Assembly: GCA_016192455.1 (NCBI GenBank) | Contig: JACPUC010000006.1 | Coordinates: 1 to 64,000, forward strand | Length of the DNA stretch: 64,000 nucleotides | Origin: Candidatus Tectimicrobiota bacterium | GTDB lineage: Bacteria > JACPUC01 | Reading direction: 5' to 3' | Shown: positions 28,822 to 34,483 of the stretch, piece after piece | Position numbering within the stretch: position 1 is the first letter of the stretch | Layout of the letters: each line of letters starts with the position of its first letter | The notes under the pieces: model-generated | Told to the model about the DNA's origin: nothing | Database searches by the model: none | The model's input: only the letters and a program-made list of their open reading frames with translations | Position numbers and translations under genes: made by a program

Positions 28822-30270
28822 ATGGGCTACCACGACATCCGAGAGTTCATCAGCGTGCTCGAGGCCCATGGCAAGCTGCGGCATGTGAAGAAAGAGGTCG
28901 ATCCGAGCTGGGAGATCGCCGGCATGGCGCGCTGGGTGTACCAGGGCTTCCCCGAAGAGCGGCGCTTCGCGCTCGTGTTCGACAACGTGAAAGACTCGTC
29001 GATCCCTGTCGCCACCGCCCTCATCGGCGCCTCTCGCGAGGTGTATGCGCTGGCGCTGGGAACCACGCCGGAGAAGATCCATGAGGTGTGGCTGCAGGCG
29101 TTGCGACACACCATCCCCCCGCGCCTCGTGAGATCTGGCCCCTGCCAGGAGGTCGTCATTGGCCGAGAAAAGGTGGACCTCTCCGCCCTGCCGGTGCCGA
29201 CCTGGACGCCCGGCAAGGACATGCGACCCTGTATCACGGCCGTCGTCATCACCAAGAATCACGATACCGGCGTGCAGAATATGGGGACCTACCGCTGTCA
29301 GGTGCAGTCCAAGGACACCGTTACCTTGAACACGATGCCAGGCCGGCAAGCCTATCAGAACTACGAATCGTACGCTCGGCACGGCAAGCCGGCGCCGCTG
29401 GCCGTGGCCATCGCCTGCGAACCTGTCGTTCACCTGGCGACGTCCGCGGCGCTGCCGAAGGGGATCGACGAGCTCCACCTGGCTGGGGCGCTGAAAGGAG
29501 CCGCCGTCGCCACGGTGCGCGCCATGACGGTCGATCTCCAGGTTCCCGCCAACGCCGAAATCATAGTCGAGGGCGAGTTACAGCCGTCGAAGACCATGCA
29601 AGAAGACTCCTTCGGGGAGTTTGCCGGCTACATGGGGCCGGGTGGGCAGAAGCCGTTCTTCCAGGTGGCGAGCATGACGCATCGCTCGAACCCCATTTAT
29701 TATGGCTACATCAGCCAGTTCCCGCCGAGCGAGAGCACAATGATTCAGGGGAACGCCAACGAGTGCATGGTGCATAAGCTTCTGGTCGATGACTTTGGCG
29801 AGACGACCGTTGTCGATGTGGCGATCAACCAGACACATGGCGGCAACCTCGGCCATGCGGTGGTGCAGATGACGCCGATCTACCCGCAGCACGCGATGCA
29901 CGTAGGACGACTCGTGGCTGAACTCACCCGCTTCAAGATGATCACCATCGTCGATTGTGACATCGACATCCGTGACCGGCAGCATCTGGACTGGGCATGG
30001 AACTCGCGGGTCAATCCGGCCAGGGATACGCTGGTGATCGAGAAGGTGTTCGTGCCAAACGACCCCGCGGCGGACCGCGGCATCACCTCGAAGCTCATCA
30101 TCGACGCCACGCACAAGGGCACCTTCCCCGATCTCTCCCTGCCCGCGAAGGAGGTGATGCTGCGCGCCTATGAGAGCTGGCAGGAGGCCGATCTGCCGGC
30201 CTTCAATCTCCCCAGCCGCGTTGAACGCCTCCTCGACTTTCATGCGCAACGTATGCAGGGTCAAACGTGA
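28822..30270 (+). CDS. UbiD-family decarboxylase, 482 aa
   Basis: A prenylated-FMN-dependent decarboxylase or carboxylase of the UbiD/Fdc family, cytoplasmic. Family markers: DIREFISVLEAHGKLRHVKK at the start, NMGTYRCQV with the active-site Arg, and EDSFGEFAGYMG, in which Glu261 and Glu266 match the catalytic pair spaced by five. The metal and cofactor residues around Asn and His in QNMGTYR and VVDVAINQTHGG also look intact. Length is typical. No UbiX gene, which makes the cofactor, is in the window. It lies between a binding protein and the AhpD-like selenoprotein candidate, suggesting a role in aromatic or unsaturated acid metabolism. Confidence 0.9.
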   Translation: MGYHDIREFISVLEAHGKLRHVKKEVDPSWEIAGMARWVYQGFPEERRFALVFDNVKDSSIPVATALIGASREVYALALGTTPEKIHEVWLQALRHTIPPRLVRSGPCQEVVIGREKVDLSALPVPTWTPGKDMRPCITAVVITKNHDTGVQNMGTYRCQVQSKDTVTLNTMPGRQAYQNYESYARHGKPAPLAVAIACEPVVHLATSAALPKGIDELHLAGALKGAAVATVRAMTVDLQVPANAEIIVEGELQPSKTMQEDSFGEFAGYMGPGGQKPFFQVASMTHRSNPIYYGYISQFPPSESTMIQGNANECMVHKLLVDDFGETTVVDVAINQTHGGNLGHAVVQMTPIYPQHAMHVGRLVAELTRFKMITIVDCDIDIRDRQHLDWAWNSRVNPARDTLVIEKVFVPNDPAADRGITSKLIIDATHKGTFPDLSLPAKEVMLRAYESWQEADLPAFNLPSRVERLLDFHAQRMQGQT

Positions 30271-30404
30271 ACCAGCCGTTCGATTCACGGAGGACCGCCC
30301 GGCCCCCCCCTCCGGCGCGCCGGGGAGTCCGGCATCGCTGCCGGTCTTATGCTGAGCCTCTACGCTCGGAGCCAGGTGGCGAGAGCAGCAAGGGGAGGAT
30401 TGCC

Positions 30405-30998
30405 ATGGCCTACATCAGGGTCATTGATGAGCACGAGGCCAGCGGAGAGCTTGACCTCGTCTATCAGAAGTATCGGGACCAGTACGGCGTGGTGCCGGAA
30501 ATCCGCAAGGTCCTCTCCCTCAAGCCGGGCTTTGTCACGCTCTACGATGCCTGGGTGCACAGCATCACCTTCGGCGGCTCGCGCTTGGGCCGCTACCGGG
30601 AAGAGTTGATCGCCGTGCTCGGCTCCTCGCTCAATAAGAGCAGCCACTGAACGGTCGCCCACGGAGAGTTTCTCCGTCAGACCCTGGGAGGCGACCAGGA
30701 GCAGGTTCTACGCATCCACGCGGATTACCGTGCCGCGGGGCTGGCGCCGGCCGATGTGGCGATGCTTGATTTCGCGCAGAAGGTCCTGGTGGCATCTCAT
30801 ACGATCGAGGAGGAGGACGTCCGAGCGCTGCGCCAGCATGGCTTCACCGACGAGGAGATCCTTGATATCACCTTGATCGCCGCTCAGCGTGCCTTCATCA
30901 GCCGCGTGGCGAATGCGCTTGGCGTGCCCATCGAACCGCGGAATCAGCATCTGGACGAGGAGTTCCTCAAGGCACTGAAGGTTGGCAAGCCGTGGTAG
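30405..30998 (+). CDS. AhpD-like/carboxymuconolactone decarboxylase-family protein, candidate selenoprotein (SxxU), 197 aa
   Basis: The frame from the ATG at 30405 (AGGGGAGG just upstream) to the TAG at 30996-30998 is interrupted once, by TGA at 30648-30650, and both parts are in the same frame. Part one has RYREELIAVLGSSLNKSSH; part two begins TVAHGEFLRQTL and continues to LRQHGFTDEEILDI and SRVANALGVPIE. Peroxidase-related AhpD proteins have CxxC then two to three residues then His-Gly here, and the TGA sits exactly at the second Cys while the first is Ser. A SECIS-like hairpin follows. I read it as Sec in an SxxU redox site, probably a thiol- or peroxide-linked reductase. A Cys-to-stop mutation is the main alternative. 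Confidence 0.75.
30653..30696 (+). promoter_or_regulatory. Candidate bacterial SECIS element
   Basis: Just after the TGA, GGTCGCC (30653-30659) pairs perfectly with GGCGACC (30690-30696), and inside it ACGGAGA (30661-30667) pairs perfectly with TCTCCGT (30671-30677), leaving an apical loop GTT. The loop starts 17 bases after the TGA and its first base is G. As I recall, bacterial SECIS elements need a short stem, a small apical loop with G in the first two positions, and this kind of spacing. Confidence 0.65.
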
Positions 30999-31470
30999 GC
31001 GCCGAACATGCCGGTGGACCGGTTTCGCAGCGTCGTGCGAAGAGCGGCAGCCGGGAAGCGAGCCCCATGGCCTCTGGGGGTCTGCCGTCTGCGCGGAGGG
31101 GTGACGGGGTCAGAGCATAGGGCAGCGGCGCGACACGGGTTGGTCGCACCCGGCGGCTGGGATGGGGTCCGTCTGGCGCTTCAAGCGGTGTGCCGGCCCA
31201 TTCCGAGCAAGATGCCTTGACGCAGGAAGGTCCTTGGGGATAGGGTTCCGGATATGAAGACGGCTGCCTCGGTCAACGAGCGGTATCCGGAGGCGCACCG
31301 TTGTGGGGCGGGGGTCTTGCCTGGGGTGGCCTCGGGCTGACGAGCGAGGAGACCACCTCGGCGATGCAGCCGCTCGTTGGAGCGAGGAGAGATGTTACGT
31401 GGGACGGCGTGCACGAGCGGCAGGTGATCGTGTCGTGCCGAAGGGGTGGCGGAGAAGGGGGGATGGCACC
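30999..31470. other. Intergenic region before the second binding protein
   Basis: No gene is seen. TTGACG at 31217-31222 with TAGGGT at 31241-31246 (spacer 18) is a weak promoter candidate. The rest looks non-coding. Confidence 0.35.
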
Positions 31471-32516: not shown

Positions 32517-34262
32517 GTGGCTCTCCGTGATCTAGCCGAAGTCTACGAGACGGACATCCTCGTCGTCGGGGGTGGTCTGGCGGGATCGTTCGCTGCCATC
32601 AAGGCCCGCCAGAACGGCGTCCAGAGGGTGGCGCTCGTCGACAAGTCGGTCCCCGGCAAGAGCGGCTGCAGCACCTTCGCCGCTGGGGTCATCGCGGCGC
32701 ATTTTCCGCATCAGGACAGCCTGCAGCAATGGATGGAAGAGCTGTGCGAGCTGGGCGGCTATCTGAACGATCAAGCCTGGCTCGAGATCGTCTTGACCGA
32801 AGTGTTTGGGTACGTGGAGGAGATGGCGGGCTGGGGGGTGAACTTCCTGCGTAAGGCCGATGGCGACTACGAGCGCATCGTCGGCCGCGGCGGCGGTCCC
32901 GGCCGAGGTCTGCGCAATATCATGTTCCACGGCCCGCAGCTCATGGAGCCTGTCGTCAAGCAGCTCCGTCTCCTCGGGGTGACGCGCTACGATCGCACCA
33001 TGGTGACCGACCTCCTCGTCAAGGACGGCCGCGTGCTCGGCGTCGGCGGCTTCAACGTCCTCGATGGCGGCTACCGCATCATCAAGAGCCGGGCGACCAT
33101 CCTCAGCGCCGGCGGCACGTACTCGAAAGGCTCCTTCGTCTCCCATAAGAACCTCAGCGGCGATGCCCACGCCATGTGCGTGCGGGCCGGCGTGGAGCTG
33201 ATGAACTTCGACTTCACCAGCCGCAACCAGTCCTGCACCGAGTTCGATACCGAGGGGATGAACATGTTCGTGGCGCTCGGGGGCAGATTCATCAATGCCC
33301 GCGGCGAGGAGTTCATGCCCGAGTACGACCCGGTCCTCGGCAACCGTACCACCAAGCCGGTGATGGCGGCGGCCACGGCGCTCGAGGTGAAGGCAGGACG
33401 AGGCCCGATCTACATGGACATGACCCACTTCACGCCCGACAAAGTGCAGAAGCTGCGCCAGGTGCTGCCGCTCGCGTCCCTGATCCTGCAGCGCGCCGGC
33501 GTCATGGTGGGCGACCGCATCAACCGCAAGCTGGCGTGGGGACCAGCGGGGGTCGGCACCGTCGCCTTCGGCGGCGGCGCGCGCATCACCACGCGCTGCG
33601 AGACCTCCATGCCCGGACTGTACGCGGCGGGCGATTCCGCGGCGCGGCATGGCGCGGGCCACAATGAGATGGGGGCGGGGGCCCTCACGTGGGCTATCGT
33701 CAGCGGCGCGCGGGCCGGCCGCTGCGCCGCCGAGGATTACTCCCAGTTCGACCTCGAAGATGCCGACGTGGCCTTCGTGGAGGAGCGGCGCGAGGCGGTC
33801 CTCAAGCCACTGCGGCGCAAGACCGGCGTGGAGCCCGAGCAGACGATCCTCGCCATCCAGGAGGCCGTGCATCCCTGGAACGTGCTCGAGCTGCGCCACG
33901 AGAAGCGCCTGCAACGCGCCCTCGACAGGATCCTGGAGATCAAGGAGCTGCATCTTCCGCGGCTGTGCGCCTACGATCCGCACTACCTCATCCTGGCCCA
34001 CGAGGCCGAAAGCCTTGCCATCACCATGGAGCTCATCCTGCGGGCCGGCCTGGAGCGCAAGGAGAGCCGCTGCAATCTGCGCGAGGACTACCCGGAGATC
34101 GATAACATCAACTGGCTGAAGTGGATCATCCTGCGGCCCGAAGGGAAAAGCTTCGCCTTCCGCACCATGGAGATCCCCGAGGGACCGGTCAAGTTCAAAC
34201 GCGTGAAACGCCTGCACCCGCTGTTTACCGCGGCCGGCTTGACCGAAGTAGGAGCGAGGTAA
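32517..34262 (+). CDS. FAD-dependent fumarate reductase/AprA-like flavoprotein, 581 aa
   Basis: A flavoprotein of the succinate dehydrogenase/fumarate reductase superfamily. The FAD-binding start is TDILVVGGGLAGSFAAIKAR, the family stretch GKSGCSTFAAGVIAA follows, and the FAD-binding end is MPGLYAAGDSAARHGAGHNE. With the small dicluster ferredoxin encoded two bases later it resembles the AprA/AprB arrangement, though it is shorter than typical AprA. Start is GTG at 32517 behind GGGAGG. The real reaction is unknown: it could oxidise or reduce a C-C, C-S or S-O bond of the compound bound by the preceding protein. Cytoplasmic; no Tat signal. Confidence 0.83.
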   Translation: MALRDLAEVYETDILVVGGGLAGSFAAIKARQNGVQRVALVDKSVPGKSGCSTFAAGVIAAHFPHQDSLQQWMEELCELGGYLNDQAWLEIVLTEVFGYVEEMAGWGVNFLRKADGDYERIVGRGGGPGRGLRNIMFHGPQLMEPVVKQLRLLGVTRYDRTMVTDLLVKDGRVLGVGGFNVLDGGYRIIKSRATILSAGGTYSKGSFVSHKNLSGDAHAMCVRAGVELMNFDFTSRNQSCTEFDTEGMNMFVALGGRFINARGEEFMPEYDPVLGNRTTKPVMAAATALEVKAGRGPIYMDMTHFTPDKVQKLRQVLPLASLILQRAGVMVGDRINRKLAWGPAGVGTVAFGGGARITTRCETSMPGLYAAGDSAARHGAGHNEMGAGALTWAIVSGARAGRCAAEDYSQFDLEDADVAFVEERREAVLKPLRRKTGVEPEQTILAIQEAVHPWNVLELRHEKRLQRALDRILEIKELHLPRLCAYDPHYLILAHEAESLAITMELILRAGLERKESRCNLREDYPEIDNINWLKWIILRPEGKSFAFRTMEIPEGPVKFKRVKRLHPLFTAAGLTEVGAR

Positions 34263-34264
34263 CC

Positions 34265-34483
34265 ATGGGTATCCGCTTGATCCAGGAAGAGCTGTGCACG
34301 GGCTGCGGGGTGTGCGTCATCTCCTGCCCGATGGATGTCATCAAGTTGGATGAGGAACGCCGCAAGGCCATCGTCCAGTACATCCGCGATTGCCAATGCT
34401 GCTACATGTGCGAGCGCGACTGCCCCGAAGACATCATCTACGTCACGCCGGATCGCGAACGGCGTATCCCTCTTGCCTGGTAG
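34265..34483 (+). CDS. Dicluster [4Fe-4S] ferredoxin (AprB-like), 72 aa
   Basis: Two cluster motifs are visible: CTGCGVCVISCP near residue 11 and, near residue 40, CxxCxxCxxxCP within CQCCYMCERDCP. They should hold two [4Fe-4S] clusters. It starts two bases after the flavoprotein stop, with GAGG before the ATG, and ends 14 bases before the FAD reductase. It very probably carries electrons between those two proteins. An extra Cys in the second motif could be structural. Confidence 0.88.
   Translation: MGIRLIQEELCTGCGVCVISCPMDVIKLDEERRKAIVQYIRDCQCCYMCERDCPEDIIYVTPDRERRIPLAW

Follow-up and report, generated by a model that had tools for sequence, protein, structure and literature searches.

What decides the fate of the TGA at 30648-30650 of this DNA: does it end a gene, or is it read as selenocysteine (Sec), and which part of the structured sequence that follows it would direct such a reading? 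The locus lies in the window, by which we mean the whole 64,000-nt stretch that was analysed. The original prediction described two perfect 7-bp stems, one nested in the other, directly after the TGA, and proposed that together they form a SECIS-like hairpin. Based on the comparisons described below, we propose that the upper hairpin (30661-30677) is very probably a bacterial SECIS element and that the UGA is recoded as Sec. The features on which the argument turns are as follows.

30390-30399, forward strand: likely Shine-Dalgarno sequence AAGGGGAGGA, upstream of the ATG, assigned by eye
30405-30998, forward strand: predicted AhpD-like selenoprotein gene (peroxidase-related, TIGR01926/COG2128), 197 amino acids, ATG at 30405, TAG at 30996-30998
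30648-30650, forward strand: in-frame UGA (putative Sec codon) in the column of the second CxxC Cys, placed by homologue alignment
30653-30659 with 30690-30696, forward strand: outer 7-bp stem, outside the recognised element, predicted to form, not conserved
30661-30677, forward strand: upper hairpin of the putative SECIS, 7-bp stem ACGGAGA/UCUCCGU, 3-nt loop GUU at 30668-30670, 17 nt past the UGA

The reading frame and its hairpins

When the TGA is translated as U, Sec is codon 82 and lies within LNKSSHUTVAHGEFLR. The product scores 108.4 bits against TIGR01926 (NCBIfam), above the curated cut-off of 81.8, and it also matches the CMD/AhpD family; solved relatives of the family are 2pfx, 3c1l, 6k40, 2prr and 2oyo. 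AhpD-like proteins of TIGR01926 are already a listed selenoprotein family with the motif CxxU (PMC13188914), also listed as COG2128 (PMC1088965, PMC2398784). As both the family and the bSECIS model are known, the gene adds a further case to an established type. The listed AhpD-like proteins, from the Sargasso Sea and GOS selenoproteomes, resemble it in family, in the placement of Sec at the second Cys and in a bSECIS directly downstream. A standard annotation would break the gene at the UGA. Its neighbours on the same strand, between 27667 and 35730, include two NMT1/SsuA-type substrate-binding proteins, a UbiD-family decarboxylase, a fumarate-reductase-type flavoprotein and a pyridine nucleotide-disulphide oxidoreductase, and the open reading frame at 34121-34483 probably encodes a ferredoxin, as judged by eye.

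Both stems pair exactly as they had been drawn. ACGGAGA (30661-30667) and TCTCCGT (30671-30677) are exact reverse complements, as are GGTCGCC (30653-30659) and GGCGACC (30690-30696); the last base of the outer stem lies 46 nt past the UGA, and translation confirms the peptide VAHGEFLRQTLGG given for these bases. The minimum-free-energy fold consists of exactly these two stems, at -22.2 kcal/mol. Its z-score of -1.9 against dinucleotide shuffles is modest and 7 of 200 shuffles are equally stable, so folding energy by itself makes no strong case; the z-score was set aside as an argument for a SECIS, being weak both for the window and for the family. In isolation the upper hairpin folds at -8.4 to -9.0 kcal/mol. 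The bSECIS model allows a loop of 3-9 nt with a G in its first two positions, a stem of 4-16 bp, a spacing from the UGA of 16-37 nt and a minimum free energy of -7.5 kcal/mol or lower (PMC13188914), and the upper hairpin fits every one of these constraints: the G stands at loop position 1, the 3-nt GUU loop is of minimal size, and nothing that matters differs from the bSECISearch consensus. An Rfam scan of 30000-31300 returned chance-level matches only and did not find the SECIS family. We take the SECIS of E. coli fdhF to be similar in its distance from the UGA and in the G of its apical loop, and to be unlike the hairpin described here in stem sequence and loop.

Selection on the upper stem

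Can a hairpin that overlaps a conserved peptide be told apart from the coding sequence that it overlaps? The original prediction held that the pairing was unlikely to arise by chance under coding constraint. For the upper stem this is borne out by synonymous recoding of the same peptide (P ~0.01 by pair count, ~0.0003 by pair strength), whereas for the outer stem the result is borderline (P ~0.06 by count, ~0.03 by strength), because the peptide alone already gives about five of its seven pairs.

Homologues carry the argument further. They were sought by protein or profile in about 790 further whole genomes, the hairpin not being used as a query, and 120 distinct UGA-bearing segments were compared with 42 that have Cys (TGC/TGT) at the same codon; the later set comprised 133 and 42, so that the Sec column of the alignment holds TGA in 133 distinct homologous segments and TGC or TGT in 42. 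The search at contig level yielded one Cys homologue only. Expected counts were obtained by redrawing each gene's codons synonymously from its own usage. All seven upper pairs are present in 57 of the 120 UGA homologues, against 0.76 expected, and six pairs in a further 17. Among the Cys homologues the complete stem occurs in none of the 42 (0.06 expected) and six pairs in just one.

The key pair of the stem, whose offsets relative to the T of the UGA are 16 and 26, makes the point at the level of single codons. A Gly codon at this place goes with a G-C pair and an Ala codon with a C-G pair; among homologues that form six or more pairs, Leu is written CTC with Gly in 44 of 45 cases and CTG with Ala in 38 of 38. 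The Cys homologues use CTG after Gly in 11 of 17. The same peptide motif is thus found with and without the UGA and the choice of Leu codon tracks the hairpin, which makes coding and RNA structure separable. On a tree built without the stem columns the key pair flips four times, with both sides changed each time; a sign test on four flips cannot reach significance, and the argument therefore rests mainly on the codon control. The covariation score, computed on 24 sequences, is 0.29 against 0.12 after shuffling (0 of 500 shuffles), and it drops to 0.13 or less when the stem positions are slid. Compensatory changes in both stems, with the loop G kept, had been named as the check on the original prediction: the upper stem displays such changes and the outer stem is not conserved. 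Taken at the level of codons and alignment columns, these comparisons show that the upper hairpin is under selection independent of the peptide.

A covariance model was built from 24 sequences, with the window left out and its UGA paralogues L018 and L019 included. The window site scores 43.3 bits (E 3.5e-8) and is the sole significant match in the 64 kb, the next having an E of 0.87. In the whole genome it again ranks first, followed by L018 and L019, which match by construction since both belong to the training set. The fourth genome-wide match, C23:274453 (22 bits), was rejected, as it has no matching reading frame or hairpin.

Clear Sec codons without a conserved hairpin had been set as grounds for refutation, and some UGA homologues do lack this hairpin. 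These have other residues after the Sec and form a different hairpin, in which a G occupies one of the first two positions of the loop; since the hairpin sits there in another register, its difference does not amount to a refutation. The loop lies at +18 in the HAEGLRR and HGEGLL classes, at +19 in HRRGLRR (L094, L104 and L122, for instance) and at +24 in DLRAEV (such as L121, L124 and L106). In the HRRGLRR class the loop region is GGUCU-like and presumably closer to that of E. coli fdhF. Synonymous shuffles lend the +24 class weaker support, and a few members (L136, L139 and L141, among others) form four pairs only, so not every alternative register is proven as a SECIS by these alignments. 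Across the family, then, the register of the hairpin appears to move (loop at +16/17, +18, +19 or +24), but the Sec site does not.

The outer stem and the reading of the UGA

Does the upper hairpin make up the functional element, or must the outer 7-bp stem form as well, in a two-stem structure? In favour of the latter, the outer stem is fully paired in the window, its predicted probability of formation is about 0.9 or more, and the seven closest homologues retain four to six of its seven pairs, partly as G-U. However, those homologues pair no better than their coding would lead one to expect (P 0.14-0.92 by pair count), the UGA homologues as a whole form 2.26 of the seven pairs against 2.29 expected from their coding sequence, and two of the stem's central pairs form in just 4% and 15% of homologues. 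A stem that is perfect in the window only, and there nearly dictated by the peptide, is not to be counted as evidence. The homologue and synonymous-codon controls rule it out as part of the element, and we regard a requirement for both stems as unlikely; the outer stem may help the local fold in the window.

The genome from which the window derives holds a complete Sec-decoding set: tRNA-Sec (75.5 bits), SelB (366 bits), SelA (596 bits), which adjoins SelB, and SelD (389 bits; L185, G000 C3:190907-191827). SelD carries an in-frame TGA near its own N-terminus (VAGUAAKLGPGD) and is therefore likely to be a selenoprotein itself.

A second alternative is that translation really does end at the UGA, in a truncated gene or a decaying pseudogene, and that the hairpin arises only as a side effect of the conserved HGEFLR peptide. 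The replacement of the first active-site Cys by Ser would suit such decay, and the peptide alone yields about four of the seven upper pairs as well as about five of the outer ones. Against this, the frame downstream of the UGA is open, with no other stop, and the seven closest homologues, each of which has TGA at this site, are as similar to the window protein downstream of it (41-52% identity) as upstream (40-44%). Furthermore, the Leu codon follows its pairing partner and not the peptide, the stem is absent from the Cys homologues, and the genome keeps its Sec machinery complete. Taken together, these observations make a pseudogene very improbable. The window stems from a single assembly, and the UGA might be thought a sequencing error, but the conservation of the hairpin argues strongly against this. 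Least credible of all is a UGA read by near-cognate suppression or reassigned genome-wide with no need of a SECIS, for which we found nothing in favour and against which stand the dedicated Sec system and the occurrence of the UGA at a single, defined catalytic codon, together with a hairpin that is selected along with it.

The preferred reading, a SECIS in the upper hairpin, is backed by covariation, by the controls with Cys homologues and with synonymous codons, and by the Sec machinery. In bacteria Sec is inserted when SelB, bound to the hairpin, brings Sec-tRNA-Sec to the UGA (PMC13188914, PMC1794560). By this mechanism, SelB with GTP and Sec-tRNA-Sec would bind the upper stem and the G-containing loop in the mRNA, and selenocysteine would be delivered to the ribosome at UGA 30648-30650 in place of termination, giving a 197-aa protein of the thiol/selenol peroxidase type. 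The position of the UGA, the pairing, the selection and the machinery are read from sequence; SelB binding and Sec insertion at UGA 30648-30650 we infer from the established biochemistry.

The SxxU active site and the paralogues

What kind of enzyme would be produced? The closest homologues, all from one small phylum, share 42-46% identity with the window protein and have the UGA at the same place in every case. The gene departs from known members in having Ser for the first Cys: its sequence reads SSHU, and listed AhpD-like selenoproteins are CxxU, so that the window protein belongs to the family by homology and the resolving Cys is absent. Three residues before the Sec, 132 of the 133 UGA homologues have Cys, and the window gene is the single exception. 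The residues of the proton relay, Glu (-15) and His (+4), occur in the window protein and in all 133 UGA homologues. The active site of M. tuberculosis AhpD comprises Glu118, Cys130, His132, Cys133 and His137 (PMC3141380). Relative to the Sec, the window protein keeps the Glu at -15, the His at -1 and the His at +4, and the C-S-H-C of the M. tuberculosis enzyme becomes S-S-H-U, with Sec for Cys133 and Ser for Cys130.

Given that Ser replaces the first Cys, a one-selenol enzyme suggests itself, in which oxidised selenium would be reduced by an external thiol and not by a resolving Cys of its own. We advance this tentatively, as a possibility somewhat less probable than its absence: an AhpD with a peroxidatic Sec and Ser for the resolving Cys, whose cycle would need an external thiol or a partner protein. 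One-selenol chemistry for AhpD-like selenoproteins is not described in the literature cited here. TTHA0727, a relative of the Cys type whose residue at the Cys130 position is Ser, is taken to lack peroxidase activity (PMC3141380). The loss of the first Cys could reflect relaxed function; alternatively, Sec may compensate with the help of an external thiol, or the protein may have taken on a different function. An SxxU site makes it testable whether AhpD-like selenoenzymes require the first Cys.

Three AhpD-like paralogues in the same genome have TGA at the same position, namely L018, L019 and the more distant L021, and the first two carry the same hairpin as the window gene. L018 is closely followed by a further paralogue, L020 (both genes at G000 C23:164065-165264), which is without the second Cys and has Tyr in place of His at +4. 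A similar arrangement of a UGA gene and a paralogue lacking the second Cys occurs in a genome of a different phylum (L085/L149, G237 C117); in such paralogues the second Cys is replaced by Leu or Phe. From their residues, the UGA gene and its Cys-less neighbour are possibly an active/inactive pair.
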